64,000 nt of DNA from Antedon mediterranea (Eukaryota > Echinodermata > Crinoidea > Comatulida > Antedonidae). Both the position numbers and the translations under genes were made by a program. The DNA is taken from NCBI RefSeq assembly GCF_964355755.1, contig NC_092677.1, positions 5,275,001-5,339,000 of the forward strand, in the 5' to 3' direction. Positions 1 to 64,000 of the stretch are shown one piece after another; positions within the stretch are counted from its first letter, which is position 1; each line of letters opens with the position of its first letter. Under the pieces are notes generated by a model. It saw only the letters and a list, made by a program, of their open reading frames with translations. It searched no databases and had not been told where the DNA came from.

Positions 1-124
1 TTATTACTTGAATTTCTCCAAGGCTCAATTTTTACACCTTTCAAGAAATGTACTAAGGTATGCAAGTGACATACTTATATGTGTATTGTGAACTGTAATT
101 TCATCAAATTTATTCATATTTCAG

Positions 125-3100
125 ATATGAAACTGAATGATTGTCATGTGATACACAAAGATAAAGCTGTTTTAACTTGCAAGTATGAAATTAAGAATGT
201 AGTGAAAGCTGTCCATTGGTATAAGAAGACTGCTGATGGAATGCCAATAGAAAAAATGCCAGAAAGATGTAAAGCAACTTGTAAGCCTAATGAAGCAAGC
301 TTAGAGTTTGAAAAAGTGGAATTTACTGATGCAGGAGAGTACATGTGTGAACTAAAAACAAAGAGAGATAACCTCAAAGGAAAACTTAAAGAAACAATGG
401 AATTTTTTTTATTTTCAGGATATAAATCACAAGCACACTTGAGTGTACAATGTAAGTAAATGTACATCTATTAGGAAAAACAGTATTGACAAAAGTTAAA
501 TGGGTTCAGCTTGTAACTAAAAACTATCAAATTTTGTAAATTGTGTAAACATGTGGTACAGAGTATAATTAAACAGTTTACACTGAAATAGTCATACAGT
601 CTAGGTTATCATTCTTTGAACACCCGATTAAAGTTAATTATTTTGTGTATTTTGCATCTTTAACAAAATTCCAATTTTTTATCACATACATAATAGGGTA
701 TCAATTTTTCAAATTTTGTTATAGTTGATGTGTTTACTCAAACTAGTGATAATGAAAAATGCAGCTACAGGTATTCTTTTGTTTTTATTACCAGAATGTT
801 TTTCAAAATCTATATACAGTATAGCCAATTCTTTGTAATGTATAATTTCATTTCATTATTTGAGTATATACATAACAAATAAAACTGAAATTGGGGAGAC
901 CAGGGTCAACCTAAGTGAACTTAATCACTGTAGCTGAGCCGGTTTACCCAACCCCAAAGTCAGTTTACACATAAAAGACAAAGACAAAATACAGTTACAG
1001 CGAATCAAAATGAATGTGAACTTTTTTAATGAAGGCTGATGGGCTTTCTAGGACTGCAGCATCTGTCAACGGTCTGGGAACCTGGTCCTGGTCCATCATT
1101 GTGATGGGTATTTATTAAAATACAGTCATGATTGCTGCAGTCCAGAACCTTAAAACAAAATATAATAAGAAATTTATGTCTTCTAACGGACAAAGATGAA
1201 ACCAGTTTAACCAGTTATATGCACATTCTGTAGTACAGTGCAATGTATCACATGTGATGTCTGTTATAAGCCATTGAGAAACACATTCACCACATGTGAT
1301 ACTTGTGAAACTAACATATAGAATTTGTTTATGATACTGGCCATATGAAGAGACACAGTACAGATTATCTGGTATGGTGTAAATCCTTTTGTGTAGGAAT
1401 GGTTTTATTTATGTGGTTTTGTTGTGCCTGTTTTTGCCATACAACTATTTTTTTTAAATAGATGCAAGGTTTGTCTTAGAAATAAATAATTTGAGATATA
1501 GTATATATTTAAAGCTATTTCAAGCATTAAATCTTTTTATACTGTAAGTTGTGTTAGAATGTGCAATTATTGTGTATAGATACTTTATAACTTTTTAAGT
1601 TTCACTCTGTGTAATCAAATCATATATTTTTATTTCATAGACATCCTGCAGTGATCTTCATAAATTCTCATTTTATCATATTTTGTGAGAAAAACAACTC
1701 AGATGTGATAATGAGAAGAGGAAAATTGAATGGAAAGAGTATGATTGAATGGGAAGAACCAAGAATGATTTTGCAAGAAAAGGATACAAGGTATGAATTA
1801 AAGATATAGCAATAGTAATCTAATCTGACCTCGATTATTAATCTGCAATGACGTCCACTAGTTTTACTATCAAAAAAATAAGAAAATGGGTAAACTAGAA
1901 TTAAATTGTCACTTTCACGAGTTTAGATTAATCTCGCAAATGCAATGTGCACATACGTTGAAATATGAACACAAAAAGTAAATGTTTACAATGATGAATG
2001 TGTGTCTATTTTGTATCCTAGAGTATACATTATAAAATAGTATTTTATGTCTAAAGGGTTTAGTCGATTTTTAAGTTTGTTAATGTAAAAAATTCAGATT
2101 AAAAATTCAATTCAATACAATGTTTTAAAAAATGTATTTGTTTTCAAAGTGGAAAACATTTACAAATCTCACATAATAATAATAATTATTTTAAAACAAT
2201 AATCATTATAATAATTACCATGACGGTTTTTGCACGTTTCTGTTTGCTTCTGTACAGCTATCATAATATAGTACCAATTGTAACAAATAATGGAAAGGTG
2301 ATTCTAATGTGTGTTAAGCAAAACAACAAAACCAGTGAAAGGAAGATAATAAGGATGAAAACTTATGACAATGGAGACAATTGGATTGGACCATTTGACA
2401 TACAACTTGATTTGACAGACTTTCAAATGGATAGTCTAAGTAAGTTAGTATAATCTGAATCTGACTGACTATTCATATTCCAATGTTACCTTCTGCGATT
2501 AACGTAACAATCAAACCATTACACAGGTATTTTTATTGAGTTGTAAATTTTTCTTTATCAGAGGGGGGAAATGGCAAAATCACTGTGGTCATGTTACAAA
2601 GATATCGAAATGATATAGACTATCTTAACCAAATAAAACTCTTAGAAAGTAGGAATCCTTTTAATTTGCCATTCTTCCCCTGACTGTTATCAAACTGAGT
2701 GTTGATTATTTTTTGTGCAACTTACAAAAATCAAAATTAATAATCTTATCTCTAAAATGCTATTTTAATATTCTTGCCCCTTTTTTTTTATTATAATAAA
2801 AAAAATAAATAAATTGTATTATTATTATTTGTAATTTTTAGTTTATAATATATTGTACTGCTGTAAATTTGTAACAATACAGTACCTTTTAAATACTAAA
2901 ACATTACAATGTGTGCTTCCCAGGCATTGGTGATGGAAAATGCTTAAAAACAAAAAAATTGGTTGTTGCAGGAGTTTGCAAAATGGACAGTAATGCAAGT
3001 AAGAAAGTACCTTATAAACTTTCCTGTAATTAAGGTGCTCAAACAAAAGTACCGTAGTTACTTGCATTGAACTAATATTTGCATCACTTTGAACTTAATA

Positions 3101-3967
3101 TGATAACTGTTTGTCATTGTACTTTTTGTCTGTTATCTTGTAATTATTTTTTTATTAGTCGCAATAATTATTTAAATGATCAATGGTGTTATTTTGCAGA
3201 AAAACTAATTGTAATTATAAGTGACAATGAAGACATTTGGAATATTTTACCCCCTGTTACACCACCAGATGCTACTTTAGGAGAGCATACACAAGTAAGA
3301 TTTACTAGTGTTTACTTTTTAAGTACCTATTTTTATTTATAGTTTCTATGCTGTAAATGTCACTTTGTCATTATGGTAATTGTTTTAGATTATTGAATAT
3401 GCAAATGACCAAGTTTACATCAGCTGTTCATTGGAGGGCTGTCATCAAGTTTACGTTTCCTGCAGCAATGATAGATGTGAAACATTTGATGGCTGGGTTC
3501 AGGACGCATTTTTAGAGACAAGCCCAGAATGCCAGGTACCCTAAAACATGCCTGTTTTTAGGATTGTTTCATTCATTCATTACCATTTAAAGGGTAGATA
3601 ATATTTATATAATTTATTGTCATTTGCATTTTGTTCCATCTAGGGTGGTATTGTACGCTTACCAACAAAGTCAGGTAACTTCTACCAAATAGCAATGGCA
3701 AGTCATGGAAATGAAACAAACAAGGATCTTACACTTCACTTAAGCAAAGATGGTTGTAAAACTTGGTGTCAGTTTTACACACTAGGTGCAGTGAATGCAG
3801 AAGAATCTGACCTAGCTTACTACAGTGTAAAAGAAGGGAAAGAAGAAGCAGAGGGAATAGTGTGTGTTTACTGTTATAATTCCGAAACAGAGGGTTATAA
3901 TATTGGAATGCAGTTGATTTCTACCAAAGAAATTAACTCAAATTATAAGTGGCATTACTACATATAG
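125..3967 (+). CDS. G0: 3' part of an Ig + sialidase-like gene (5' end outside window)
   Basis: Spliced model, exons 125-451, 725-770, 1641-1790, 2258-2439, 2924-2998, 3200-3294, 3389-3535, 3644-3967, all with AG/GT borders and compatible phases. The first exon is one Ig domain (HWYKKT tryptophan strand, DAGEYMC F-strand). The rest is a sialidase-like propeller: an SYRHPAVIF segment matching the family's YRIP arginine motif, an RRG segment, Asp-box-like YDNGDNW and SKDGCKTW, an ECQ-GGIVRL segment, then a stop. It is the paralogue of the 3' halves of G1 and G2. Exon 3200-3294 replaces two exons of G1/G2 and lacks about 24 residues including one clear Asp-box. In the Ig exon the segment before LSVQ is longer than in G1/G2 and contains a polypyrimidine-AG string (about 403-419) that looks like exonised intron. 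Catalytic residues look degenerate. Earlier exons lie left of the window. Confidence 0.82.
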
Positions 3968-7424: not shown

Positions 7425-10400
7425 TTAGTCGTATAACTGTTCACAATAATGTGGTTCTGCAACCTTTTCTTTCTGTGACGTAATACAATCACGAGGCTCT
7501 TCATAAATGACCTCTTGACTTGAAGAAATAGGACTTTCAGGAGTTTGACATTCGATTTCAATCTCTTTTCTTTCCTAAAAAAACAAACAATAGCAATAAT
7601 AATTGATTGTTTCTATTGAATATATTTTAACAAAATATTATTGTTAATGATGTGTTAAAATGTTATCAATGTATGTGCCATGTCGTAGAAAAGATGGTTT
7701 ATTAGTCATTAACAAATTCATGGTACTTAAAAACAAGTTTCGATTGCTTATGATATAAATAAATATACTGGGTATATTTATTAATGTCAACACAATCTTT
7801 CCTACACTGAACGTTATTTTTTGTTAAGCTTAATTCCCTCTTGCATGCAACGTGTTGTTTTTTCCCGCTGTTCACTCCGTCAAATCGAAAAAAACTTCGG
7901 TGTAAGAGTACAACCATAGAGGAATTTATACAATAGAATATTGGAAAATTATGATTTCAGTCTCCCATTGATTCTGTTTTGTTGGAATACTTCAACAGCG
8001 TCAAACCACAGAGTTGTCAGAATTAATTGTAAATCTGTTCAGTATTAATTAATGTATTTAGGTTTTTTTACCTGTGTTCTTGTTCTGAATTGCCCTCTGT
8101 TGATTTTGCTGTAAACGTCAACATTGGATTGAGTTTTCACTTGGCCTTGACGATTTTGATATTTTGAATGGACTTCTCTTAATCGTCTTTGCTAAAGAAA
8201 CAATTTCAATAAAAAGTATTAGTTTGTTCGTTGGGTGCTTAAAGGAATGTTTATTCATCACCTTGACTTAAAACTGTAAACAAAAAGTACTTACATCAAT
8301 ACAACGTGTAAGAACAGAACCAAGAATGAATGCAATGATGATAGCCACAGTTAGTAGGCCTACCGTACCCATTTGAAACGAATCATCTAAAACTGTAGAA
8401 AAGAATTAACCGTTAGTTAAGTTTGGTTGTGAAATTATTGCAAATATTTATTTTCAATACTGGTCTAAAGTGGTGAATGATTAACAAGTTGAAATGTAAT
8501 CATTCAGACACTAACACATATTGGTAAATACAGTATGGTGACATACCTTTCAAATTTTCTGTAGGCCCATCTGTAGACATATCTGCTTTGGGCCTACAGT
8601 TCTCAAGTGATGTGGAGGCATTAAATTTTTCATTCTCTGCATAACATGTAAGATTTGATGAACATATCTCATCATTGATTTCTATAGTTGCTGTATTTTC
8701 TCCTTTCTTAACCACTTCTCCATCTTGTAATATCAATACTGATGATGGCTTGGGATGGCCCTCTGCTGTACAGGTTGCAAAACAATCTTCATGATTGAAT
8801 GTTGCGATCATATCTAATGAGGGAAGATAAAGCTTAAAGCTTAAGAAAATGAATATTCATTTGGAATCGATATAGGCCTAACAGCAAGAAAATTAAGCTT
8901 GTTATTACAGATTCAGTTCATCACACCTTTATTTAGTTATGAATATATCTGGGCCCTTACAGAAGAGGACCCACCACAGGACTCTAAATGAAAGAAAAAG
9001 AAACGAAAGAAAGAAAACTTTTAATAAACAAAGCAAATTCAAAAAGTTATTTTTAATTATGGGACCCTTTCTAAAGTACAGTACAATATATGGTAAATGA
9101 TGAACAAGAAAACTATTAATAAACAAAGCAAATTCTAAAAGTAAATGAAACATTCAGTAGGGTGGGGAGTAGGGGCAGAAAAAATAATAAGGATATTCAA
9201 AATTTAAGTATTCAGAATATAGATATAGAAAGTTTATTTTTACAAGAAAACAAAACAAAGGAAAACCAAATAGTGATATTTTTTCTAATTCAACTTATCG
9301 AAACTTCAGATTACTACAGTATATTACATAAAAACTATATTTTTGATCGGCTCATATCTTTAATAGTAGGCTATCATTAGATACAAACAAATGTACCACA
9401 ACATTGTCTACGTACAAAATATTTCAAACTGTTTTCCGGCACTAATTTTAGCATCAAGTCCCTTAAAAGGATCACTTTCTGCTTTACATGTGTATATACC
9501 ACTGTCTTCCATAGTGGCTGCTTCAATCTTAAGGGCATTGCCGTTGGTATTTATCTTCTGTCCATCTTTATACCAAGTAATGTAAGGAATAGGATCACCA
9601 TCAGGTTTACTACAAGTAAATGTGACTGTTTCACCTTCATAGACAGTGCTTGCTGAGGCATTAAGACGTGGTTGATCCATGTCTGAGAAAAACAATACAA
9701 AAAAACAACGAAAATAATGGTATACAAATAAAACAATTTACAAATTAAAGAATGAAAGACATTTATAGAGTAGACATAGTATTAATGAGGCATTAAGACG
9801 TGGCTGATCCAAGTCTGAGAAAAAGTATAAAACAAATTAGACAGCAGACAAATAAAGATGTAGTCAACACAAATTACAACAAAAAGAAGTGTATATAGTA
9901 TTATGCCTATTATTGATACTCAAGAAAATGTAGGCCTAACTCTAATTCCGGAGTTATACTATTGGCGTGACGTGGGAACATTTACAATTATAGGCCTACT
10001 ATTTAGTAAACAAATATTAAGGATGTCGGTTTATGATGTGTTTATTTTTCAGGCTACATCATGATTATCTGTTATACTCACAATATACAGTTAGCATAGA
10101 TGGACTTAATAATTTAACCAATCCATCTGCGGTTTGTATCTGGCATCTAAATATTCTCTGAGAATCGTTTCTTAAAGGATGTAAGATCACCAGGCTAGCT
10201 TCACCAGGAGCAGTGTGTAATCGGAAACGTCCATTTTCCATCTTTTTATCATTCACAATTCCTGGGTTGATGACTACTTCATCTTCATTTAGTTCATCCC
10301 ATTGTAGTGAAGTAGGAGTAGAAGTAAATTGTGAATAATCACAAGTTATCACCACTTCTGCATCGCCTTCTTTAGCTGTCTGGTTAAAGGTCGTTTGACC

Positions 10401-10722
10401 ATGTGCTTTAAAATATCAAGCATATCCTATTGTTTATATTTAACCAATGATAATTCAAAATTTAACTGTCTCAACCTAAAAATATATATATTCTACGAAG
10501 TCATGCAAACAAGTAAAAGAATAAAACTGCTCTCAATCAGCATCAGCTGTTTTTAGTTTTACGCGTTCGTAATCTGGTTATTGAAAAATAGTTCAATATT
10601 AACTGACTGACTAAAAAGTGTATGGTCGTTTAGTTGTTGATTATCATATTTAATTATATTTTAATTATCTTACCGACTAAGGATTGTATATATACAATAA
10701 ATAAAATTCGCTTCAAACCCAT
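7425..10722 (-). CDS. M1: Ig-domain transmembrane receptor, short-tail form
   Basis: Seven-exon model read right to left: 10674-10722 (signal peptide MGLKRILFIVYIQSLV), 10082-10405 (Ig1), 9416-9682 (Ig2), 8547-8813 (Ig3 and linker), 8295-8392 (membrane segment, TVGLLTVAIIIAFILGSV), 8072-8191 (tail), 7425-7574 (last tail exon and stop). All borders are GT/AG and phases agree (1-1 between Ig exons, 0-0 in the tail). Ig1 has ITCDYSQF and IFRCQI cysteine strands; Ig2 has TFTCSKPDGDPIP and SGIYTCKAE; Ig3 has FATCTAEGHPKP and LTCYAEN. Tail tyrosines include DVYSKI, VIYEEP and PHYCEQLYD. Compared with M2/M3 it lacks Ig4, the first tyrosine of the ITAM pair and every YVKP exon. It is head-to-head with G1. 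Probably a surface receptor; the ligand is unknown. Confidence 0.82.
9787..9821 (-). pseudogene. Relic of a duplicated Ig2 exon start in M1
   Basis: On the minus strand a splice-acceptor-like CTCAG is followed by about ten codons nearly identical to the start of the Ig2 exon (DLDQPRLNAS), then similarity stops. The intact Ig2 exon begins about 100 bases downstream on the minus strand. The same relic is found in M2 at 38157-38191. Confidence 0.6.
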
Positions 10723-10906
10723 CTGAAAAAAAAAATAGAGAAAAAAACTTTTTATTAATATTGGTTTACAGCATGGAGGAAATCTATGTTATTTCGTCCA
10801 TGAATATATAAAGTTTATATTATCTATAATGAAATCCTCATCGTAAATAATCGTTAACAACTAACAAACTAGAACAGAAGGATAGTATATTTCAAAAGAA
10901 TAAAAG

Positions 10907-14118: not shown

Positions 14119-17100
14119 ATGCATTTACTAGTAGGTGTAGTCATATTCCTGGTTTTTACTAATGGTAAGTACCTTGTATTTCATTTCAATACAGTTTTAT
14201 ACTTCATGCTTATTATGCGATTGAAAGTATCATTTTCTGTGATAGTTTCTAAGCAATATTCAAAATCCTGAAGGATGAAAGCCACACAAAAAGACAAATA
14301 AAAAAGCATAAATATATTTTCTTTACTTTAGACCTAATAATATATTCTTTCATTTCTAGAGGCCCATTGCCAGTTGGTGACAACATCTGACCAGGAAGCC
14401 AATGAAGGTGATGCTGAAGTGGGGATAACTTGTGATTATTCACAATTTACTTCAACTGCACCTTATGCAATACAATGGGATGAACTAAATGATGGTGGAG
14501 TAATTATCAACCCAGGAATTGTGAATACTAATAAGGTGCAAAGTGAACGTTTCAGGTTAGAAACTTCTCCTGGTAAAGCTAATCTGGTGATGTCACAACC
14601 GCTGAGAAAAGATTCTCAAAGAATATTTCAATGTCAGATAAAAACACTAAGTGGAGATATTCAGTTATCAAATCCATCTATTCTAACTGTATATTGTGAG
14701 TAAAGTAGATTTAATATTCTGTTGTTATACCACTATTTCTGATGTAATACAATATTGCACCTCTGTAGAAGTTAACCTTTTTAGTAGATAGAGTCCTGGA
14801 GCATCAGTTTGGTAGTAGGGGTGTGAGAGACTGAGGTGAACACATTTTAGACAATAGACCTTTAGCTGCACCTAGAAATTTCATTTAAACTTGGAATTTA
14901 TTGACTTTATTTATTATTATTTTTCTGTTCTATCAATGTTTTATCTGAAAAATATAGAACACTAACAATGAAAGTGCTAAAAGTATAATGAATAAAAATA
15001 TCCAATCTGCAGACAGTACTATTTTGATCTTAGATCTTGTCAGTGCAGCTCAGGTTTCACAATTATTATATAGCTTAAGCTAGTTATGTTGGACATGGTA
15101 CACTGATTATGAACACAAAGAGTGCAGAAACTCAAGGAGCGAGCGTGCAATGAAAAATTCTATTAAATAATAAATTATTCTAACAAAAATGCATGGTGTG
15201 GATTTGAAGAGTGCTAGTCTAGAAAACAACATGCTTTTGTATAAAGCAGAATATAGAGAAGTGTAATATCTTATCTGCATAAAGAATAAATATAAATAAA
15301 AAAAATTATTTAACAACATTAATGATCTTTACTCTAGAAAATGTATTCTTAAAAAATACATTTATATTTTCTTTCTTTTGATAATCAGACTTAAATCAAC
15401 CACTTCTTGATGCCTCAGCAAGTACTGTCTATGAAGGTCAATCAGTGACCTTTACCTGTAGTAAACCTGATGGTGATCCTATTCCTGACATTATTTGGTA
15501 TAGAGATGGACAGACAGTCAACACCGACAACCCTTCTAGATATGAGATTGCAAATAGCAGTACAGAGTTAGTTCTTAAAATTAGATCAGCTACTGATGAA
15601 GATGGTGGGAGATATACATGTAAAGCAGAAAGTGATCAGTTTAAAGGAGATGATGCTAAGACAAGTGTTGAAAAACGGTTGATTGTAATTGGATATTGTA
15701 TGTACACATTACTTTTAACATTACTATTAATAATTGTCTTGTTAAAAGTATGATTTATGTGATTTAAATTTGATTTTAGTTTTAGTTTAAATCTAGAGAT
15801 AGACAGCATTAACATGAGCTAAATTTGTCTTTTTAGATATTTCCATTAATTTTACATCTGATGGTAGTTTTGCAACCTGTTCAGCAGATGGCTATCCCAG
15901 ACCATTATCAGTATTGATATTACAAGATGGAGAAGTGGTTAAGAAAAGAGAAAATACAGCAACTATAGAAATTAATGATGAGATATGTCAATCAAGTCTT
16001 ACCTGTGATGCAGAAAATGGAAAACTTAATCAAACAGCAGCATTAGAGAACTGTGGTCCAGGTCATACAGTATTCAGTAAATACAATTATTACAAAGCTA
16101 TACATACAAGTTTTAAAACAATATTTTAAGAAATTTAAAAATGTTGTTATAAAATAGGTCTTCCTGGTTGATAGTATATACCATTCACCAGAAAGAATAA
16201 TACATTGCTTGAATGTTAGACCTACAGATAAAATTAATTTACATTGACATCTGAGCTGATCTTGTACCCCTTTTTCAGATATCACTGTTGAGTTTACATC
16301 TGAAGATGGTTTTGCAACATGTACAGCGGAGGGCCATCCCAAGCCATCATCAGTATTGATATTAAAAGATGGAGAAGTGGTTGAGAAAGGAGAAAATACA
16401 GCAACTATAAAAATAGATGACGAGATATGTCAATCAAGTCTTACATGTTATGCAGAGAATGGAAACCTTAATGACACAGCCACACTGGAGAACTGTAGGC
16501 CCAAAGCAGGCAGGCCTACAGATGGGCCTACAGGCAATTTGAAAGGTATGTCACCATACTGTATTTACCAAGTTAGGTTAGTGACTGAGCAATACATGTT
16601 GGTGGTATTTAGTTTAATGTAAAATGCAACCAACCATTGTTAAAAGATGATTTAATCATCGTAGTGATGTCTCAAAAGAGAAAGAAAGTTAAGAGAAAAA
16701 ACAAAATGATTAAACAAATGTGTCAATATGAGTTAACAAATTAGAAAATAGTATAAAACAATGTTAATGTGTAGAAGAAAATGAATGTTAAAAGAAAATT
16801 TTTTTTGATTTTATTTATTACGTGCAATGTATTTCAATATTTTAAAAGATGATAAAATAAAAGTGGGATATACCAAGTAGATCACCAAAATACATTGCTC
16901 TTTAAACACTCCTTTTTGTTAAAACACAATTTGAAACAATGCAACTGTCAGACATTAATAACATGATGATTAACATCGCATATTTGTATTGCTTTATTTC
17001 ATGTTCATCAAGACAACAACTACTAAAGTAACTACCATATCACAACATATTCTGCCTTTTCCATCTTCCCCATGAAACATCCAACCTTCCTCATTAGCAG

Positions 17101-18685: not shown

Positions 18686-18754
18686 AAATACTAAATCCTT
18701 CATTCCTTGAATTGAAAGTACAAAGATACAAAAAGAAAAAAGACATGTTTGTTT

Positions 18755-18852
18755 AATAAAGTATTGTGTGTTTTGTGGTGTTTCAAAAAGGAAATTTTGA
18801 CTCCTCCAATTTGATTCCTCTTTGGTACTTAAATTCTGTTTTTTACAATAAA
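18755..18852 (+). terminator. Candidate poly(A) signals after the short G1 reading frame
   Basis: Two AATAAA hexamers (18755-18760 and 18847-18852) lie 70-170 bases after the TGA at 18683-18685. Comparable hexamers follow the G2 stop at 49194. They support a transcript ending here but do not prove it. Confidence 0.4.
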
Positions 18853-19059
18853 ATGTTATCCTTTTTTTTCTAATTAGAGTAAAACCTATTCTTTGGGACA
18901 CCTCTATTCAAGGGCCACCCCAATTAAGGGGATACTTATCTGTGAAATGAATGAGACGCAATTTATTATATTGTAGCACTATGGCCAACCTTATTGTGAG
19001 CCAAATGTGACCCTTATGGGTTTTACTATATTAACAAAATATAATTGTTTTTTTCAAAG

Positions 19060-49194: not shown

Positions 49195-49543
49195 AAATAC
49201 TAAATCCTTCATTCCTTGAATTGAAAGTACAAAGATACAAAAATAAAAAAGAAAAAAGACATGTTTGTTAAAGTATTGTGTGTTTTGTGGTGTTTCGAAA
49301 AGGAAATTTTGATTGACAATTTGATTCATCTTTGGTACTTAAATTCTGTTTTTTACAATAAAATGTTATCCTTTTTTTCTAATTAGAGTAAAACCTATTC
49401 TTTGGGACACCTCTATTCAAGGGCCACCCCAATTAAGGGGATACTTATCTGTGAAATGAATGAGACGCAATTTATTATATTGTAGCACTATGGCCAACCT
49501 TATTGTGAGCCAAATGTGACCCTTATGGGTTTTACTATATTAA

Positions 49544-50169
49544 AGACCCCTTCCCTGCAATTTTGGACGTTTTTTGGAAAATAATACATATATATCACTT
49601 TAAAAACATTAAACCATGTCATTCCTTGTCTTAAATGTACGTTTTATGGTAAATTATGATAAAAAGTGAGAAACAATGCACTACCTAAGTAGCTCGCGGC
49701 GATCGACCTCTCGTGGACGGTCTTAGGCCTAGCCTAGCTAGGCTTAGTTTTGTAGGCCTAGCTGGTAAACATCGGTAACGTACGAACATCGTACGCGAGC
49801 TATATACCTAGCCTGACGTTGTATAGTTGCTGCATTAATTGTCTTTCTAATTTTGCCAGACTCCGTTGATACAAATTGGGGAAAACCCGGTATTTTTGCT
49901 GAAAAGTTAAGAGTCTTCCATTTGTTTTGGCCTCTCGATCGATCGAAAAGTGGGCGAATTACAGGTGAAAAACAAAAATATCAATCCGCGCGCAATGCAT
50001 TTTGGGATTTATAGCGGGCCGCTATAATTATTAGAATCGACTTATTTTTCACATTTTTAGCCGTTTAAAGACGAAAAAAGTTATCGCAATAGGACCATAT
50101 AGTATTATTTTTACATTAAATATAGTTTGTGATCTTAAATTAGATCTAAAAAACGTAGGGAATGGGGCT
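49544..50169. mobile_element. TTAA-target MITE, copy 2 (G2 intron)
   Basis: 626 bases, nearly identical to 44949-45567, between TTAA copies at 49540-49543 and 50170-50173. The G1 sequence at about 19028-19042 (ACTATATTAACAAAAT) is the exact empty site. It ends only about 30 bases before exon 50199, so it sits close to that exon's acceptor. Confidence 0.85.
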
Positions 50170-50198
50170 TTAACAAAATATAATTGTTTTTTTCAAAG

Positions 50199-51298
50199 AC
50201 AAATCCTGATGATGAAGATACTGAACTTTTAGCACAACATCAAGCAACATCTGGTGGAAATTCTGAAATTTCTGAAGAGAAAGGTAAACTTTTTTATTAT
50301 TTTCTAGAATACTTTTTTAGTATTTGGTAGGGGAAATGTTACACATTTGTTGTTACTATAATGTATTCTCAAAGCTGAGGTTTCCATTTTGATAAAGTAA
50401 ATTCGATATTACCTGATACTTTTATTGTCAATATGAACAGATTGACTTTAGAATTCTTTTTCAGATGTAATAAAAACATGATGACATATTAAAATGTTAA
50501 ACACATAAGCAAATCAAAAGATATATAATCCTATTTGCACTATATATTGTGTATATTGAATTATGGGTAGAATTTTAACAAACTTGACCACCTTCAACCG
50601 ACAATACAAAATAGATTAATTAGCTGTAGATGGCAAGATTTATTGAATATGAGTTCATGATGTGGGATGGTAAATGTTTCTGATATTAAAATTCAATTCT
50701 TTCTCTCTGCTCTATTTTTAAAAGTCTGAAATCAAAATCCTATATCTGTAATTATATTTTATTAATCAATTAATCAATTTTGTTTACGTTTTGCTTGATA
50801 AATCTCCAACTCAATACTACTGATCAGTAAAGTATTTGTTATGTTCTTTGTTTAGAAGGATGACATTTCGGCAACAATCATACAGTAAGAATTTATTAAC
50901 ATAAAAGCTTTAGAATGAGGCCTCAATTTTGAAAATCATTTCTCACTACTTCCAATTCTAATCCTATAAATCCTAACGATGCATAGGATATTATTTGATA
51001 ATGTTTCTTGGGTTTTTAAATTCATTGGCTTTTAACAATCATCAAAAAATTAACACGTGAAAGATAAGTACAGGCTCTTTTTAATTTATAGACAAACCCT
51101 TTTTGCAAATAGAATATTCTCTAGGTTTGCTCAATTGAATAAACAAACAAACATAGAGCAGAGGGTATGCATGTAGCAGCATCTCTCAACAAGATTTTGT
51201 TTGTTATTTGTTTTTAAAAACTGGTATTCCAATTCAGTGGTTCTTTGTTATATACAGTTTATTTCTGGCTAAATATTTTAATGAAATGTTAGTTTCTA

Positions 51299-51340
<42 letters not shown>

Positions 51341-52900
51341 GCCTTTGGATATATATCCATATCCAAAGGCAAATTACTGAAAAAAATGACAATGCTGTGG
51401 GTATCAGTGGCTGGATCTCAATGGAGATACAAAAATAAAAAGCGAAAAGCTAAATCAAAACGATAAAGTAAACAGCCAGAAAAGTTAGCAGAGCTTTCGG
51501 GCAACACTAGCCCTTCATCAGTGCAAGTGAAGGAATTTGGATAAGGTCATAGTATAAAGCTGGCAAGTGCTGCCTGGGTGGACAGGAATAAAAGAAATAT
51601 AACAAAGGGAGCCAGGGTGGAGTCTGAATAAGAGTAGAAAACAAAGAAGGTAGCTTGGTAGAGATATAAACAATTTTGGAATGAGACTAAAAAACAGCTA
51701 AAATGGTGGTTAATATTGAAACTTAAATTTTGGTAGTCAATGGAATAATTTTACCGATCTGGGAGTATGTTATATATATATATATATTACCTCTTACATT
51801 CTATAACATTTGCAACCATTAATTAAGTACTCTAACACTGCCTTTGATTTTTAAGATCTACCTTATTTTTTTCCTTTGTTTCTTTGTACTTTTTCATGTA
51901 AAAGTTGGGGATACTCATTTCCATTGTATTACAATATTGTCTACTGTGTAACCTTTACTTATGAAAAAGTAGAAATAAAGATTACCGAACCTGACTAAAG
52001 CTGAAACCACAAGAAAAAAAGGCTAGAGGACATCTACATGCAATTTATATTAAGATTTTATTTATGTACAGTATTTGTTGCTACTACTCAATTGGATTTT
52101 ATTTTTAAAAAGCATGTTTCTTAAATATTTTTGCCCTTCAACAGATTCTTTATAATTTTTCTAAGACTAAGTTGTATTGTTGTTGTTTTTATGTTGTTTT
52201 AGCAAAAGACTCAAATGAAAGGTAACGGTTTGTGGTACTATAGCAATAAAAGCTTATTTAATTTTTTGCTTTAATTGCTTAGATTATTTATGTTGACAAT
52301 TTAAAACATCAGATTATTATCTATCATCTTATTTACCTAATCATTTTCTACTTTTATTGTTCTGTTTGTTAGTTACTGTGTAGTACAGCTGTATCTGCCA
52401 ATATTTGTTGTTAACTGAAATCTAAATAAAATACACTATGTACATCAAGCACCTTTAAACCACAAGCTTCTATTTTGTGTGCTACATCTACAAACACCAA
52501 CAATGTATTTTGGTTTATAAACATAACTGATTTTGATCTGAATTCGGATTCTTAACTTTTTTTTTCCCTGTTCTAAAGTTACAATCTTCGTCGCATACTT
52601 TGTGATCTTCAATATGCTTAATTTAGTGAATATCACTACCTGTATGTGTTTGTTGGAATCTTTGCTGCGCTTATTTGTAAATCTTTGGTGAACTTACTTT
52701 TCGTGGTATATTGCTTTTTTTATACCACTGTATTTTATACTCCCACTTTGTGTGGGATAAGATGAATAAATTCCCTTACAATAACCTTTAAATTTTACAT
52801 TCAATGGTTTAGTAAATTACCTTGTGTTATTGTTTGTTTTAAATTCTAATTCTTTCTTCATTCTTTCTTTTTTTTTAGATCTGATAAGTACTCAAGTAAG
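50199..52900 (+). CDS. G2 linker mini-exons
   Basis: Exons 50199-50283, 52203-52221 and 52879-52895 (an in-frame TAA follows at 52901-52903 if unspliced). Sizes and phases match the G1 mini-exons 19060-19144, 21065-21083 and 21734-21750. The protein is acidic (NPDDEDTELLAQHQATS, then KDSNE and SDKYS). The role, linker to the Ig-sialidase module or alternative C-terminus, is unresolved. Confidence 0.55.
51303..51788 (-). mobile_element. Unclassified retroelement-like insertion in the TA tract of G2
   Basis: About 430 bases between TA runs (51303-51336 and 51770-51788) replace the Penelope remnant found at the same place in G1. It starts with a 17-bp perfect inverted repeat AATTTGCCTTTGGATAT (51336-51352 and 51359-51375). 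The minus strand near 51488-51525 has CUGAUGA, a GGGC/GCCC hairpin and GAAA, a hammerhead-like core, but with one extra A and no matching stem I. Confidence 0.45.
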
Positions 52901-53127
52901 TAACAACCATGATATTTTCTTTTAATATGACATTTACAAAGTGACATTACATTTATTTAAAGCTGATTCCTTCATAAAAAGATGAAGTTTGTTTTAAGTA
53001 GAATAGGAACTTTCGTGTATATCAACATACCAGTATTTTATTCATTGATCTATATACTCCATGGAAATTCACAAAAGCCCATTTTATTATTGAATGGTGG
53101 ATATCAAATTAATATCTTACTTTCAAC

Positions 53128-56100
53128 TTGAAGGTAAATCATCTGCAATTAATATATATTTACTTTTCAGTGTTTACAAATGGAAGAGGAAAAATCAGCC
53201 TAACGGTTTCAAATCTTGTGATATCTGATTCAGGAGAGTACAACTGCAACATAGAGGGCAATAGACAGCAAGGTCAAAGTGTCAACAATGTAACTGTTTA
53301 TTGTGAGTTTTATAAATGATTTATTTTATTATTTTTTTAATCACCATGTCAGATAAGATTACAATTAAATAATGTATTAAATAATTGTTTAAATCAGTTC
53401 CATGTGTTAAGTTCATAATTTTTATCTATCTAGTGGATAAGTAGTGGCCACCATTCCTTCATCTATGTAAAATGAATTATAACATCATGTCCATATATGG
53501 GCACATCACATTATTTTGTAAAGTTTGATAGTGTAGACAAAAATTAAGAGCAAATTTCATCAGCTTATATATTTTTTGAAGGGATTGAGAGGAAAAATCA
53601 CAAGTACTCATCAGAAGAAGGTATCAATAATTTTGAAATGAAGTGCAGATATGGACCAGCAGATATGCCATTAACAGGTTACAAGTGGAAGAAGATTAGG
53701 GAAGATGGCACAACAGAGATTGAGGATTGTTCTAAAGATTCTAGATTTGAAGTAACAAGTTACCAAAATAGCATTCTGTCTTTGAAGATAAAGAATGTTA
53801 TACTTGGTGATGCTGGGATGTATCAATGTGAAGTGAAGCCAGTTGATGGAGAACAAATACTGAAAGATACTACACATCTGACAGTGAAGGAAGGTAATTT
53901 TATAGAATTAAATGAGAACCTGTTTATTTTTTTTGTATGGTTTAGAAAATGTGTGTGATAGTAAAGTATATGGTACAGTTGAGAAAATGTTGATGTTTAT
54001 AATGCCTGATAAAGTGAAGAGATTGCCTACTGTAGTATTTCCAGAAGTTTTTTCTTTAAAAGGCCTATAACATGGAATGTTTGTTTATCCTGTGTAATAA
54101 TATACATATTGATAATCTATTATTTACTAGCAAAGTATAATGTAAATTTTGTATTAAGCTGATGAATATATTTTTGTTTAAAAACATTTTTTCCTGGAAA
54201 TGTCTTTTATAGATGTTATCAAAATGGAGATTTCTGATGTTACTATCTATGAGGGTTTCAAGAGTGCTACATTGTTGTTAAACATAAAATATGTTGATGA
54301 TTCTGCTAACATATCAAAAATCACATGGTATAAGCTTGTTGAAGGTGAAGAAATTATGTTGCTGACATCAGCTGATTCACGCTATGAATGTGAATATTTG
54401 GATTCAAAGAACAGTGTATGTTTTAATATCAACAATGTTGAACCTGAAGATGAAGGAGAGTACATATGTGAAGTAGAAGTTAAAGGAAGACAGAAAATAT
54501 ACAGATGTTCTGGAAGGCTAACGGTTAAAGGTAATGTATATGCTGCCAAATTAAAATACCTGGAATACCCGAGGTTGCAAATTCTTGAAATTTAATTGTG
54601 AATCCAAATCAAACATACTGTAAATTTGAAGATGTAAACAACATTTTCCCACACACTTGCTTATAGCAATACTCATCAACAAAAGCATTTCTTAGGTAGT
54701 TTTTTTGTTGTTTGAATTCCAATATTTGGTTCATTCTGTCATTAATATCTACTGTTTTGAAACTGTGTTCATATTATGGTATCATTACATGAGTTGATTC
54801 TTTTTTTATATATAGAAACATTAGGGGCCTACTCCCAAAAAAAGTAAGCAACTCTTACAAGTTGCAGTTACTGTATAATGGTGACAAAAATGTTTGTTTT
54901 TAATTAAATTTTGTTTGAACCATTTGTATTTGTAGGTCCTATAAAAATGGATATTCCTGATGTTATAACCAATAAAGGTGTGGAATGTGATAAGTTGTTG
55001 TTGAAACTTACATATTTTGATAAGTCTGCTGAAATATCTAATATCACATGGTATAAGCAGGTTGAAGGTGAAGCAAAAGAGCTGACATCATGGCAGTCAC
55101 CTAATCCAACATCCGTACAGTCACCTGATCCAACATCCATACAGTCACCTGATCCAACATCTGTACAGTCACCTGATCCAACATCCGTACAGTCACCTGA
55201 TCCAACATCCGTACAGTCAGCTGATCCAACATCCGTACAGTCACCTGATCCAACATCCGTACAGTCACCTGATCCAACATCATCACAGTCACCTGAGCCA
55301 ACATCACGCTATGAAATGGGATTTGTGGGTCAGAGCAATGTATATCTCAACATCAGCAATGTTGAATTTGAAGATGCAGGAGAGTACATATGTGAAGTGA
55401 AAATTGCAGGAAGACAGAAAACATACAGTTGTTCTGGAACTTTAACAGTTCAAGGTAATATATCTAAAAACATTTCTTTGCTGGAATTAAATACTACACT
55501 ACTAATACAACCTTGGAAGTAATATGTTTAGAAATGGCAAATGTGGTGATTTCTACAAGATTAACAATAATAGTGAAAAATAATTGTATATTCCTACTTT
55601 CAGATATGACACTAAATGACTGTCTTGTGACAGTTGAAGATAAAGCTGTTTTAACTTGCAGGTATCAAATTAAGAATCCAGTAAAAGCTATCAATTGGTA
55701 TAAGAAGACTTTTGGTGAATACAAGATGATATTTACTTCTGATACATTCAATCAGAAGATAGCAAATGTACCAGAAAGATATAAAGCAACTTTTAAGGAT
55801 AATGAAACAAGCTTAGAGTTTGAGCAAGTGTCGGTAACTGATGCTGGAGAGTACATGTGTAAACTTGAGATTGAGCGCTGTACACCAATGACCAAATTAG
55901 CAAACTTGTCTGTACAATGTAAGTAGATTTTAAAATATTTAATTTTCCATAAAAACTGATATTAATGTTGACTGTATTGATTGTATTATTTTATACCTAT
56001 AGACTGGCTATTATAATCAATCAAATAGTATGTAAACCATGTGATTTAAATGTATTTATAGTACTTGTTAATAATAAATTTCTCTTGTGCCATTTGGCCA

Positions 56101-58698
56101 TTTATTCACAATATTATACAATCAGTTCAATACATAAAATTAAGAGGATACATATTTTTCAAAATGTTTGCTCCATTTACGTTTAGTTGCTTCTTTTTGT
56201 AATATAATTGAATTATTATTAATAACGTTTATTTCAAATATACCCAATTAAAAGGATAAATCAGTTTGAAATTTAATGGTTTGACTTGTTATTTTAAAGT
56301 AAGTAAGTAAGTAAAGTTTGGTGACACCTATACATTAATATGTTTTGTTTTTGTAGTTGATGTGTTTACTGGAGTTGATGAACTAGGTAACACATACAGG
56401 TAATTGCCTTAATATCTATTACCACCATGGTTCTAAAAATCAAAACATTTAAAACTGCATGACTGGTTTGTTGATATTCATTCATAATTGTAAATTGTTT
56501 TTTTTCTCGTTATACTTTACAAGACTTTTTTTATTTCCCATTTTCAATCTTTTTTTTTTTCTTGGTTTATACTTTATAGACACCCTGCGGTAGTCTTTCT
56601 GAATTCCAATTTACTTGTCTTTTGTGTGAAAAACAACTCGGATGTAATAATTAGAAGAGGAAAGATGAACAAGAAGAGTTTGATTGAATGGGAAGAATCA
56701 AGAGTTATTTTACATAAAAAAGATACTAGGTATTAGATAATGAAAATATTAATCTAATTTTGTATTGCATAAAAAGATTATTAAAGTTTATTTTAAAAAT
56801 TCACATTAAAAATTGATTCTAACTCTTGAGTACAATGCTTTAATGAAATGTATCTGCTTAAAAAAAGGGGATACAATTACAAATCTCAGTATTATTTTAA
56901 AGCACTAATTAATTATAAAATTACCATGACCATTACCTATCTTTGCACTGCTGCATTGTTTAATATTTACTGTACAGCTATCATAATCTAGTACCAATTG
57001 TAACAAATAATGGAAAGGTGATTCTAATGTGTGGTAAAAAAGATAATAACAACACAAAAGAGAGGAAGATGATAAGGCTGAAATCTGATGATAATGGAGA
57101 GAATTGGATTGAAGCATGTAATGTAGAAAACTCTCCAGGCGATATTCTAAGTAAGTTATTTTCAAATATTAAAGCTGAGATTAATGCACTTTTCAGGGTT
57201 GGATCCATGATTTATTTTGTTTTATATATGGTTTTATGTGTCTTTTATCGGTTTTTATGTGAAATCTTTTGCCAACAACTTTTTATTTTTCAGGCCTAGG
57301 TCATGGTGTATGTTTAGATTCAGGGAAATTAGTTATTGCAGGAGTTGAAAATCTGGACAATAACGAGAGTAAGAAAAGTAACACAATTAATAAACTTTTG
57401 TAAAATTATGGATGTGCTTAATATTAATATTCAAACAATAATAAAAAAATGATTTATCTTTTGTAAGTTCAACATACTGTAATTTAACATAACATCACTA
57501 ATTGTATTGTGTATCATTAAAAATAAATATAACAGTGACATTGTTTTTTTTGTGGAATTTGAAGAATTGTGTTTGTGTTGTTTTTGCAGGAAAACTATTT
57601 GTAATGACCAGTACTGATGATGGTGACACTTGGAGTATTGTATATGCTGAAGAGAACACTGGTATGCATCTCATAAGTCTATATTTAAAGAAACATTGAT
57701 TTTTCTTCCTTTCTAAACACCTTACAGATTTTATCTGACAAATGTTATTTTTAGAAAATTGTAAGAAAAGTATGAATTCTGCAAATAATTCAGCAAATCT
57801 TTTGTTTGTGTAGAAAATCTTTGGAGTACTGATAACCTTAACAGTTGGGAACTTCTAAATACTGTTAAACCACAAGATGCTACCTTAGGAGAACACATAC
57901 AAGTAAGATTAAAGAAGCTTTTCATTAAGAGACACTCTAGTAGTTTAATAGTATCTCTATGGTTTAGTTTGAGAATGGATTATTTTTGTCAAACACGAAC
58001 TTTAGTTTACTGCTTTAAGTGCCATTTTGGCATAATATCTCATTTGTTCATTAGGTTGTTGAATATGCAAATGACCAAGTTTACATCAGCTGTTCTTTGG
58101 AGAACAGTAATCAACGTTTGACTGCATACAGCAATGATGGATGTGAAACATTTGAAATTGATAATGAATTATTGGAGGCAAATCCAGAATGTCAGGTAAT
58201 CTACATGCAAGTCTTGTATATCTAATGTATTGTCAACTGTCTAGTCTCATCTATTGTGGTACTGAGTGTTGTCGTTGCTATGGTGTGAGAACTTATAATT
58301 GTTGTGTCCAATCAAATGACAAAGATCTACGTAACTGTAAAAAACTGCTTTGTCTCATATTAATATAATTAAAATGTTATATAAATTGTATTATTACCTA
58401 GGGTGGTATTGTACGTTTACCAATCAAGACAGATGAGTTCTACCAAATAGCAATGGCAAGTCATGGAAATGAAACAGATAAGGATCTTACACTTTACTTA
58501 AGTGAAGATGGTTGTAAAACCTGGTCTCAGTTTAATACACTAGGTGCAGCGAATGCAGAAGAATCTGACCTAGCTTATTACAGTGTAAAAGAAGGGAAAG
58601 AAGAAGCAAAAGGAATAGTGTGTGTTTACAGTTATGGTTCAGAAACAAAGGGTTATAAGATTGGAATTCAGTTAAATTCTAACAAAGAAATTATGTAA
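53128..58698 (+). CDS. G2 3' module: Ig domains fused to a sialidase-like propeller
   Basis: Exons 53171-53302 (half Ig), 53582-53893 (Ig5), 54213-54530 (Ig6), 54936-55454 (Ig7 with nine QSPDPTS-type units), 55604-55918 (Ig8), then 56357-56399, 56580-56729, 56978-57150, 57294-57368, 57590-57661, 57814-57902, 58055-58195, 58402-58698. Architecture and exon sizes match G1 except the Ig7 repeat. The propeller retains RHPAVVF, DDNGENW, STDDGDTW, TLGEHIQVVEY, ECQ-GGIVRL and SEDGCKTW. As in G1 the residue corresponding to the NEU2 nucleophile tyrosine is Glu (AEESDLAYY) and the third-arginine site is Lys. Propeller exons 56978-58195 are almost identical to G1, but the last exon differs at about 17 bases. 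The small exon seen in G1 at 27744 has a 2-bp deletion here (54816-54843), so it must be skipped. Confidence 0.82.
55094..55309 (+). repeat. 24-bp coding minisatellite in Ig7 of G2 (9 units)
   Basis: Nine tandem 24-base units, mostly QSPDPTSV, in the same Ig7 loop as the six-unit array of G1. The internal units are more homogeneous than in G1, as expected of recent unequal exchange or slippage. Confidence 0.95.
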
Positions 58699-59898: not shown

Positions 59899-62800
59899 TT
59901 AGTCATAAAACTGTTTACAGTAATAAGGTTCTTCAACCTTTCCTTTTTGTGACGTACTACTAATTACAGCATCATTAGGTTCTGCATAAACTTCCAAATA
60001 ACTTGCAGAAATAAGACCTTCGTACTCGGGACTTCGGCGTTCCATTTTAATTTCTCCTCTTTCCTAAAGGAGCAATACAAATATCGGTATTAACCTCATT
60101 GAGTGTGAGCGAATATTTTTAGATTATTTAAGTTAGATTAAAAATCAATTACTGTTTGTCTTGGATGACGGTTCAATAAATGGTGTCACAATGTGTAAAT
60201 TTTAAATAGTTTTACCTCTACTTTGTCAATGCATTCCGTTTTCGACATAGGCTTGACATATCCCTCGTCATCTAGGCATTCTGTTTTCGACATAGGCTTG
60301 ACATATCCCTCGTCATCTAGGCATTCCGTTTTCGACATAGGCTTGACATATCCCTCGTCATCTAGGCATTCTGTTTTCGACATAGGCTTGACATATCCCT
60401 CGTCATCTAGGCATTCTGTTTTCGACATAGGCTTGACATATCCTTCGTCATCTAAGCATTCTCTTTTCGACATAGGCTTGATATATCCCTCGTCATCTTT
60501 GTTTACATCTAAGCTTGTCGAAATTTGCAAACATTGATTCTTAGGATTTTCATGTTCCATTTCTGTTACTTCTCTCTGTAAAACAGCCAATATATAATTT
60601 AGTTTGTGAGTTTTCATGATACAATTTTGATGTTAAATCTTGTCACTTATTGACACATTTCGGTATGCTCTTCTGGAAATAGATTGTACCTAAACTAAAT
60701 TTAAACATTACTGATCATTTTTAAAGTCAGACATAGTTAATAAATCAGAACTTAAATATAAAACTATTATCTTTAACTTGTTATGTCACAGTTTTCTAAC
60801 TACAGAAATGTTTGTTTTACTACCGACTGGTAACCAATTGTTACTTTAGTAGGTGACGTAGGCTTGACATATCCCTCGTTATCTATGTCGACATCAGATG
60901 TTGCTGACACTTGGTTCTTAAGATTTCTATACTCCAATTGTATTACTTCTCTCTGTAAAACATACAATAGATATTTTGGGAAGTTTTCGTGATAAGTTCA
61001 AAAAACATTTATTTATTCAACAATGGCATTATACAGTATAATATAATTATAGGTGTGTACATAAATGAAAACATAGTAATAAGCCATCATTTGGGGTCTT
61101 CTCTAGAAGAAAACAAGTTTCTTGTCTCGAGAAAGACCCCAGAAACAATACACATACATTTAATGTATCACTTATCTATTTAAAAATCTTGAGGTACCGG
61201 TACGCTCTGCTGGAAATATAACTAAAAGGTAGGATTTGAGTATTAAACTATGAATTGGTAAGACACAGTCTCTAAACTACAGTGTTTTCTACTACCAAAA
61301 CTTATAAACAATTGTTACTTTATTAGAAGTTGGCTTGACATATCCTTCGTCATCATAGCTAGTCGAAATGTGCAGACTACTAATTACAGCATCATTAAAT
61401 TCTTCATAAACTTCTAAATAACTTGCAGAAATCGGACCTTCGTACTCGGGACTTCGGCGTTCCATTTTAATTTCTCCTCTTTCCTAAAAGAGCAATACAA
61501 ATATATTTATTATCATCATTGAGTGTGAGAAAATAATTTGTTAATTTTTCTGTTGAGTGAAAGTCTGTGACTTTTTAGAAAATGTAATATATAATATTTC
61601 GTACGCCAGTGGCAAATAGCTGAGAGTGGAATGTACCCCAGATGTTCTTTTCGCTAAACCACAGGTACTAACAGTAAAAAAATTTAAAGAGCCATTAAAA
61701 TCACACCTCTTTTCTGAGGAATATAAAATTAATGGATAAATAAAATGAATCGGATTCTAAATCAGCTACAGTATGTGGTTGTTAGCACCTTGAGCACTTT
61801 TAGTGGATATGTGCGCTATAAAAATTATTATTGTTATCGTTATTATTACAGTCGATCGAATAAACTCCGCCATACTTTTTCTCTGTTTGGTAAATTAAGA
61901 AGTACTACTGTAGTCTTTTGTACTTAAAATGTTGAAATTCTATTTCTATTATTATTATATCAATATTTATAAAGCGTCAATTCAAAGACCGAGGTACAAA
62001 ATCAAAGGCGCTGGGCATGTTAGTGGTCGAAAAAATGAGTTTTGAGCAATTTTTTATATAAGGCAACAGAAGAGCAGTGTTTAATTTGGGGGGGGGGGGG
62101 AGTGAATTCCAGAGTGTGGGTGCTGCAAAAGAAAACGATCTATGACCAAAGGTTTTAGTGGCTATGCGTGGAACAGAGAGTAAAAAATCATCAGATGATC
62201 TAAGAGTCCGTCCAGGAACATAAAAGGTAATTAATTGACGGATGTAAGCAGGTTGGTTGCAAAGAAGTGCTTTGATACTTCTCGACTTCCGATGGTGAAC
62301 TGGTATCGCAATGTCAAATGTATATTTTAAATTACCTCAACTTTTGCGATACATTCTGCTTCAGACATAGGCTTGGCATATCCCTCGTCATCTATATTTA
62401 CATCAGAGTTTGTCGAAATTTGCAGACATTGGTTCTGGGGAATTGGAAGTGCCATTCGTGTTACTTCTCTCTGCAAAACATGCAATAAATCATTAATTAT
62501 GTTTTGTATATTTTGTGTTGAATTTTGACAGCCAACTGGTAACTTGTCAATGAATAATAATTATTTTAAACTCCATTCTGTATCATTTTGAATCAGTTCG
62601 CATTTGTCGTAATGGGAAAATAACTGCTTTTGAGTGTCAAGTCCGACCATAAAGTTGAAATTTAGTTGAGTTTTAGTATTAAACAATATTTACCTGTATT
62701 CTTGTTCTAGGCCTTTCTTTATTTGTCGTCCTGGTATCACCGGCGTCCACGGTATGCTCTTTGTTTATCTCTTTGTAATCTCCAACATTTGAAGGAAATT

Positions 62801-64000
62801 TCAATGTTTGATATTGAGGATTTTGATAATCAAAATGGATTTCTTTTATTTTTCTTACCTTAAAGAAACAATACGGATAACAGTAGATATAATATCGATT
62901 AAAATTGCATTTTAGGCCTAATTTTCTTTTGTAGTTAACTAACTGTCGTTCTATATTGTATTAATATATTAATAAGTTTTATTGATTTAAAATTACTTAC
63001 AAAAATATAACGGGTTATTAGAAACGTCGGGACGGAGCAAAGAATTGCAGTTAGGGCTACAGTTATCACCACAGTTATCATCGTGCCTATTGTATATAAA
63101 GCATAACCTAAAAAATGCAATGTGAATGTTGAAATTGGCCTATACACAATTGAACAGAACGTACAATATGTTAATTAATTATTATTATAATATATTGGAA
63201 ATCTCACTCTAGTAACAGTGGTACACTTTGTTGATAAAGTTGCGTCCAAATGATAAGTTAAATGAATGAAAATAAATGAAAAAATGTGTAAAATACAGCA
63301 TAGGCATACAAAAATAAGATTAATAACTTAAAATGAATAAAAATGATTCAAAGTAAATATGTTATTAAAAAAATGAACTGTAATAACATAATCTAACACA
63401 ATTTATACAAAAAAACAATAAAGAATACTGTGAATGCAGGTAATTTATTTATTTTTTTAAAATTTATTTATTCGACTTCTCACTAACTCAGTTAGTGAAG
63501 GATCTGGACCAACAGGTGGTAAACACCTCTAAAACGGTCCAGTCCCAATTTGCACAGTGGCTGTGAGTGACAGTGGCTGTGTTTGTGTGGACTAGTACAC
63601 CGGGGTAACCCCCTACTCGTCTCGAAAGATGTACTAGGTTCTTTAAAGTGCGCATGAGCTATGTGTACACTGGACCTACGGTTTATAGTCCTTATCCGAG
63701 AAGACTCGTTCTACCACCAGAACCATGGAGCGAGTGAGCCTCGAACCCTTGCCGATGTTATGGCTACTTAATTACGGTTCCACTGTCTTAACCGCTCGGC
63801 CACTCACTCACTCAATTTGAAATATTTTCCTTTTTAGTCAACTTTACCTGTATTGCAGTTCTCTAGTAATGTTGTTTCATTAAATATTTCGTTCTCTACA
63901 TAACATGTACAATTTGATTGATATATCTCATCATTGATTTCTATAGTTTCTGAATAGTTTTCTTTCTTAGTCACTTCTCCATTTTGCAATATCAATAGGC
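59899..64000 (-). CDS. M3: Ig receptor with ITAM and 6-copy YVKP tail (5' end outside window)
   Basis: Right to left: 63848 to beyond 64000 (Ig4, cut by the window edge), 63001-63107 (membrane segment, six residues longer than M2), 62694-62858 (ITAM-like exon, QYQTL and DYKEI), 62336-62470 (EGYAKP exon), 61292-61483 (chimeric exon with stop), 60824-60952 (EGYVKP exon), 60216-60575 (repeat exon, six units), 59899-60063 (last exon, stop after YD). Exon lengths equal those of M2 except the repeat exon (180 bases shorter, four units) and the membrane exon (18 longer). Introns contain a SINE and a 326-base insertion absent from M2. The signal peptide and Ig1-Ig3 should lie to the right of the window. 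Confidence 0.82.
60232..60501 (-). repeat. 45-bp coding minisatellite, 6 units (M3)
   Basis: Six units of the DDEGYVKPMSKTECL type; one unit reads EGYIKP. Tyrosine and proline at +3 are kept in all six. Confidence 0.97.
61593..61850 (+). mobile_element. Decayed LINE 3' end in M3 intron
   Basis: Orthologous to 34621-34866: VKKFKEPLKSHLFSEEY followed by a stop and an ATT-rich tail. Confidence 0.6.
61951..62276. mobile_element. 326-base insertion in M3 intron
   Basis: M2 has the uninterrupted site (TATTTCTATT joined to ACTTCTCGAC, about 35071-35090). The insert begins ATTATTATATCAATATTTAT and includes a run of 12 or more G at about 62089-62100. No ORF; family not recognised. It lies within about 60 bases of the 62336-62470 exon. 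Confidence 0.6.
63447..63813 (-). mobile_element. tRNA-derived SINE in M3 intron
   Basis: A minus-strand element flanked by AATTT duplications (63442-63446, 63814-63818); M2 has the empty site GATAATTTGAAATAT. The 5' end shows tRNA promoter boxes: A-box-like TGGCCGAGCGGTTAAG (63787-63802) and B-box-like GGTTCGAGGCTC (about 63735-63746), resembling a Leu/Ser-type tRNA. The 3' end is an AATAAATAAATT tail. Confidence 0.8.

Follow-up and report, generated by a model that had tools for sequence, protein, structure and literature searches.

What kind of locus is the 64,000-nt stretch of Antedon mediterranea DNA analysed here (the window; C8:5275001–5339000, NC_092677.1), and could its genes serve self/non-self recognition? 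The original prediction was that divergent gene pairs with a common ectodomain, each an Ig-phosphotyrosine gene (M) beside an Ig-pseudosialidase gene (G), form a tandem array. The window belongs to a 354-Mb assembly, and this single assembly was used throughout. The reading that we favour, at a probability of roughly 0.55, is that the germline encodes a fast-duplicating cluster of receptor pairs for non-self or self recognition, each consisting of an ITAM-bearing M and a G partner with a membrane or a long form.

Gene models were built from open reading frames, splice sites and phases. For comparison we used the other G copy of the window, one at 5.06 Mb and a remote one on C3. Every modelled junction is GT-AG and in phase (Table 1). 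The window contains complete M1 and M2 and the 3' part of M3, all on the minus strand, as well as full-length G2 (14.1–31.5 kb) and G3 (42.3–58.7 kb) and the 3' part of G1, all on the plus strand. The predicted alternation of three minus-strand M genes with three plus-strand G genes is correct in order and strand, with M3 and G1 represented by their 3' parts only. M3 probably has its Ig1 in an exon immediately beyond the right edge of the window (C8:5339825–5340133).

Table 1 Features of the window (positions of the window; minus-strand exons are given in the direction of the gene).
Feature	Positions	Strand	Exons	Basis
G1, 3' part	102–3937	+	last Ig; sialidase-like exons 1639–1788, 2256–2405, 2926–2994, 3220–3297, 3392–3535, 3644–3937	
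M1	7425–10722	−	signal (ATG 10722), Ig1 10405–10082, Ig2 9682–9416, Ig3 8813–8547, TM 8392–8295, juxtamembrane 8191–8072, tail 7574–7425 (stop)	open spliced frame, GT-AG sites
G2, ectodomain common with M	14119–16545	+	signal 14119–14164, Ig1 14360–14695, Ig2 15389–15697, Ig3 15837–16061, Ig4 16279–16545; Ig phases 1-1	splice sites, phase; Pfam Ig domains
G2, TM exon (SYAIILIILFVGLLTWFLLLV)	17382–17468	+		hydrophobic segment; present in 10/10 related G loci examined
G2, X259 exon	17815–18075	+		Ig-like N-half, then Cys-rich hydrophobic segment
G2, tail cassette	18303–19144	+	basic juxtamembrane 18303–18342, EEYQMM exon 18505–18676, acidic 19060–19144	
G2, microexons and Ig5 second half	21065–22157	+	21065–21083 (19 nt), 21734–21750 (17 nt), Ig5 second half 22026–22157	splice sites and frame conserved in C3 copy; V-set second half
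G2, Ig6–Ig9	26318–28772	+	Ig6 26318–26629, Ig7 26947–27264, Ig8 27863–28309, Ig9 28458–28772	
G2, sialidase-like domain	29216–31534	+	linker 29216–29258, 29423–29572, 29814–29986, 30130–30204, 30427–30498, 30651–30739, 30892–31032, 31238–31534 (stop)	BNR_2 (PF13088), E=6.4e-21; in-phase GT-AG chain
M2	32737–39089	−	signal (ATG 39089), Ig1 38772–38446, Ig2 38076–37810, Ig3 37211–36945, Ig4 36474–36244, TM 35912–35824, juxtamembrane with ITAM 35662–35498, tail 35274–35140, 34511–34347, 33972–33865, 33594–33055 (ten EGYVKP repeats), 32901–32737 (stop)	open spliced frame; 11 exons after signal exon, open to stop
G3	42337–58697	+	from the signal exon (42337) through the final sialidase exon	copies G2 exon for exon
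M3, 3' part	60186–64000	−	Ig4, TM, ITAM exon 62861–62685, tail with six EGYVKP repeats	

The array reaches far beyond the window, which is enclosed in a ~1.1-Mb cluster on C8 with about twenty two-gene units of one M and one G. A search of the assembly with Ig1 gives ~49–50 matches, nearly all within C8:4.70–5.80 Mb and a few outside it, on C3 and C4. The last sialidase exon has 20 matches in the assembly, the M juxtamembrane exon has 15, and the X259 exon of G has 19 copies, roughly 14–15 of which have a sialidase exon downstream in the same orientation. Between 4.75 and 5.50 Mb, each of the 15 G Ig1 exons has an M Ig1 directly before it, head-to-head on the other strand. One more such pair, at 5.73 Mb, where the cluster has types and strands reversed, brings the number of head-to-head pairs to 16, the M and G labels of the Ig1 exons being taken from the strand and the neighbouring type-specific exons rather than from a full gene model for each. 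The alternation of minus-strand M and plus-strand G is strict over most of the cluster (2.4e-7 under independent gene orders), and duplication of whole pairs is its likely cause. The predicted recent duplication is borne out as well: in a self-comparison of the window, the duplicated unit is ~27–28 kb long and mostly 90–98% identical. Near-identical stretches may stem from recent conversion or duplication. One M/G pair, at C8:4749640–4756370, is nearly identical to the pair at 5213880–5221750, 0.46 Mb away, which we read as a recent segmental duplication or conversion.

M is composed of a signal peptide, a V-type Ig, two or three further Ig domains, a TM segment and a tyrosine-rich tail. In M2, the four Ig exons are of phase 1-1 and the five tail exons of phase 0-0; the 45-bp repeat unit of the tail occurs ten times in M2 and six times in M3, and the M2 tail carries 16 YxxP motifs, the highest count among the M genes. 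The juxtamembrane exon of M2 encodes an ITAM, YQTLx8YKEI. A canonical ITAM after the TM segment (YxxL-x7-8-YxxL/I) is present in 9 of 14 M copies, always in the same exon, compared with 0.15–0.3% of shuffles, and it is kept in copies whose juxtamembrane exon has diverged to ~43–50% identity. It is lost in the other five, including M1 and the M gene on C3. M1 has three Ig exons, without Ig4, and lacks most of the tail and a full ITAM; it is the exception both to the predicted tyrosine-motif tail and to the predicted Ig1–Ig4 series, of which Ig1, Ig2 and the membrane-proximal Ig are common to M and G in the same order. A conserved ITIM was not found in M1, M2 or three G tails, the sole ITIM-like match being LEYQNL in the M2 tail. 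No sushi domain is among the Pfam hits of M2 or G2. The minus-strand open reading frame 61977–62336, without a Pfam match, looks by eye like the C terminus of a LINE reverse transcriptase.

G has the same Ig1–4 as M, then TM and tail exons; the frame continues through another five Ig domains into a sialidase-like propeller. G2 comprises 25 exons with introns that are all GT-AG, and the concatenated frame is open from the ATG to the stop of the last sialidase exon, in the order Ig1–4, TM, X259, basic juxtamembrane exon, YQMM exon, acidic exon, two microexons, second half of Ig5, Ig6–9, linker and sialidase-like exons. In G3, a one-base insertion near the end of the Ig1 exon (42633–42969) causes a +1 frameshift and may mark G3 as a damaged copy; its other internal exons differ from those of G2 solely by multiples of 3 nt. 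Within the Ig domain of the Ig8 exon lies a 24-bp repeat (SPDPTSVQ) that can expand, with about 6 copies in G2 and 9 in G3 (54936–55454). The intron of G2 between Ig5b, the second half of Ig5, and Ig6 holds a young-looking minus-strand LINE (22352–26039) with an open endonuclease/reverse transcriptase frame of 1022 aa and an upstream frame of 224 aa; it is absent from the G3 copy. The tail of G is poorly conserved. The predicted YxxM is present in G2 and G3; of ten related G loci, only some have it, as YQMM or YWMM, the Tyr being lost in others, and the three G tails checked have neither ITAM nor ITIM. With no conserved ITIM and a patchy YxxM in G, the predicted opposite outputs of M (ITAM and YxxP) and G are unsupported.

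X259 is the most conserved G exon. Its Cys-rich, hydrophobic, TM-like stretch is conserved in 10/10 copies aligned, and its dS relative to the C3 copy is 0.18–0.32, compared with 0.3–0.7 for Ig1–Ig4; splice-control sequence or gene conversion may account for the low dS. Pfam recognises only the second half of Ig5, and we read the Ig-like half of X259 as a candidate to join Ig5b and complete the domain. The TM-like segment falls mid-way through the Ig5 thus expected, complicating the splice routes of G. An internal X259 donor that would yield a clean Ig5 was sought by eye, and the best candidate GT is not conserved. The structure model of X259 shows four strands and then a helix, but with a pLDDT of 43 it is not good enough for interpretation. 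The TM exon, X259 and the three-exon tail cassette (297 nt in total) are each frame-neutral when skipped, so that a membrane form and a long form of G may both be possible.

The sialidase-like region was assigned to G by the BNR_2 match listed in Table 1. Above the curated cut-offs, Pfam reports Ig-type families and BNR_2, plus one short chance hit in a repeat; PDB searches with the G sialidase domain gave weak bacterial sialidase hits only, and an NCBIfam profile search gave nothing relevant. As a reference for residue loss, G was aligned with two sialidase genes on C5 of the same genome, which keep YRIP, RK-S/D, NVRN/NARN, RENITL/RVNMTL and AYS/EYS with LYE/AFE; the catalytic identity of these motif residues is established for GH33/NEU sialidases. 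G is like those enzymes in its BNR_2 propeller with Asp boxes, its YR-P motif, its first Arg and the Glu preceding the second Arg (base Glu). Unlike them, it has the acid/base Asp region deleted, Arg2 changed from NVRN to SCSL, Arg3 changed to K/N/E and the final Glu (LYE) replaced, and the set of Arg triad plus acid/base Asp of an active GH33 enzyme is incomplete. A replacement of the catalytic Tyr by Glu was considered and withdrawn, since retention of the nucleophile Tyr is alignment-dependent. Judged from these residues, the G propeller most plausibly binds without catalysing, and the prediction of an Ig-plus-pseudosialidase gene stands. The G2 sialidase exons s4 and s5 (30427–30739) resemble a duplicated Asp-box exon; G1 and the C3 copy have a single exon there, so s4 and s5 may be alternatives.

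Ig1 is predicted with high confidence (pLDDT 92) to adopt a V-type Ig fold, and the two core cysteines of the V-set, C21 and C87, are invariant. The best structural matches of the model are V domains of TCR V-alpha and antibody VL (Z ~14); antibodies and TCRs make up most of the VIA-align and Foldseek lists, and the absence of other families there was given no weight. Variation in Ig1 peaks in the FG (CDR3-like) loop (dN 0.38, dS 0.21). For close pairs, the pooled dN/dS is 1.14 in the CDR-like loops vs ~0.64 elsewhere in Ig1. Random blocks reached the loop dN in 130/5000 permutations and the loop ratio in 385/5000, indicating that the loop signal is moderate, and modest by ratio.

The V domains do not sort by gene type. 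In the window, M and G are ~80% identical in DNA in Ig1, ~71% in Ig2 and ~88% in the membrane-proximal Ig. The phylogeny of M and G ectodomains that had been proposed as a check was run on Ig1: M and G are intermixed, with at least 10 type changes and no two clades, and monophyly of M is rejected (p-AU 1e-120), indicating that V domains have been exchanged. The M and G Ig1 on C3 are sisters (support 100/99; 84% identity). Adjacent M and G Ig1 resemble each other slightly more than shuffled partners do (65.3% vs 63.2 ± 0.86%; 40/5000). The mixed tree and the similarity of neighbours fit gene conversion or V-domain exchange between M and G.

These features suggest how a pair could work. M would be a type I receptor with the V-type Ig1 and two or three Ig domains outside and the membrane-adjacent ITAM and a modular YxxP tail inside, and may signal via Src/Syk-type kinases and Crk-type adaptors. 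G would be its partner with the same V-type front end, produced by alternative splicing either as a membrane form (Ig1–4, TM and short tail) or as a long form running through Ig5–Ig9 to the dead sialidase propeller. The V domain would read a variable ligand through its CDR-like loops, and M and G would go on recognising the same or each other's ligand because their V domains are exchanged. G may then act as a co-receptor, soluble decoy or ligand for an activating M, and we infer a role in immunity or allorecognition.

The G locus might instead be two genes per unit, a TM receptor (Ig1–4, TM and tail) followed in the same orientation by a separate, secreted Ig-sialidase. The distance from the tail to Ig5 (2 kb in G2, 11 kb on C3) and a stop with AATAAA shortly after the EEYQMM exon are in favour of such a division; however, Ig5 would lack its first half unless spliced to an upstream exon, the tail exons, microexons and Ig5b are in phase, with microexon lengths on C3 changed by threes, and no signal peptide exon of a second gene was recognised. 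We consider two genes possible and somewhat doubtful; the question concerns the structure of G only and is compatible with a recognition role. It is very improbable that much of the array consists of decaying duplicates or an assembly artefact. Such an origin would account for the G3 frameshift and for a stretch near 5.05–5.07 Mb with nearly the same sequence as part of the window, but not for dN/dS <1 in most exons relative to the C3 copy, for the open frames of nearly all Ig1 and 19/19 X259 copies, or for Ig1 copies that have diverged to ~55–95% identity.

Multi-Ig ectodomains with adaptor-type YxxP tails occur in adhesion receptors too, and the genome holds many other Ig genes, so the array could be an expansion of cell-adhesion or neural-recognition Ig genes that have tyrosine tails, rather than of immune or self-recognition genes. 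We find this unlikely, as a V-set Ig1 with loop-biased change, an ITAM, recent duplication on a megabase scale and V exchange are unusual for adhesion genes. Classic paired receptors, with activating and inhibitory members for one common ligand, would share M and G's common, exchanged and clustered ectodomains; the lack of a conserved ITIM and of any conserved motif in the G tails makes them a poor fit, and we give them little credence. Of the predicted hallmarks of paired receptors, the closely related ectodomains in one cluster are there and the opposed ITAM and ITIM partners are not. The preferred reading remains a receptor-pair cluster for recognition.

Vertebrate paired Ig receptors of the KIR, PIR and SIRP types have homologous ectodomains homogenised within a cluster and ITAM signalling, as in M and G; unlike M and G, they have opposite ITAM/ITIM outputs. 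For Hydractinia Alr, we know of no description of head-to-head pairs or of a sialidase-like partner. Compared by description, Alr receptors are, like the genes here, clustered and have ITAM/ITIM-type tails (PMC12065747). The fester and FcoR genes of Botryllus are encoded and expressed as pairs whose gene content varies pairwise; FcoR has V-type Ig and ITIM/hemITAM tails, and festers have no known signalling domains (PMC12065747). Haplotype variation of V-type receptor gene pairs was described there, its authors being aware of no earlier case (PMC12065747). Like them, the M/G locus has clustered adjacent pairs with V-type and further Ig domains, one partner with an ITAM-like tyrosine tail and the other without a known signalling motif. 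The Botryllus genes differ in belonging to a tunicate, in having sushi domains and HECT E3 ligase neighbours, in the lack of a full ITAM in FcoR and in that no sialidase-like domain is described. By analogy, the M/G locus would work most like fester/FcoR, which together with Hydractinia Alr is its closest analogue. Snail FREPs are Ig plus fibrinogen (PMC7588048); snail FREP/VIgL resemble G as invertebrate Ig proteins with a C-terminal carbohydrate-related domain (PMC7588048), which is fibrinogen or lectin in snails and a sialidase-like propeller, with no fibrinogen by Pfam, in the M/G locus.

In the open-access literature, we found no description of Ig plus sialidase receptors and no paired ITAM receptors in molluscs; as far as that literature shows, an Ig fused to a dead sialidase is undescribed. 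New here are the ITAM of M, a V-type Ig1 with CDR3-like variability, the exchange of V domains between M and G and the lost catalytic residues of the sialidase. We suggest tentatively that this may be a self/non-self recognition locus: about twenty head-to-head pairs of an ITAM receptor and a partner that switches between membrane and secreted pseudo-sialidase forms, with TCR-like V domains traded between them. The array resembles the self/non-self recognition clusters of sea squirts and hydroids. A comparable array with ITAM and V exchange in this animal would suggest a repeated origin of paired recognition loci that signal through an ITAM, and would supply candidate recognition genes for a large animal group.

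Elsewhere in the assembly, an rDNA-like unit on C2 (L022 1480–2800) has a tandem expansion of AGCCGTACT at the expected middle of 18S, followed by another 18S start, and may be an rDNA pseudogene array.
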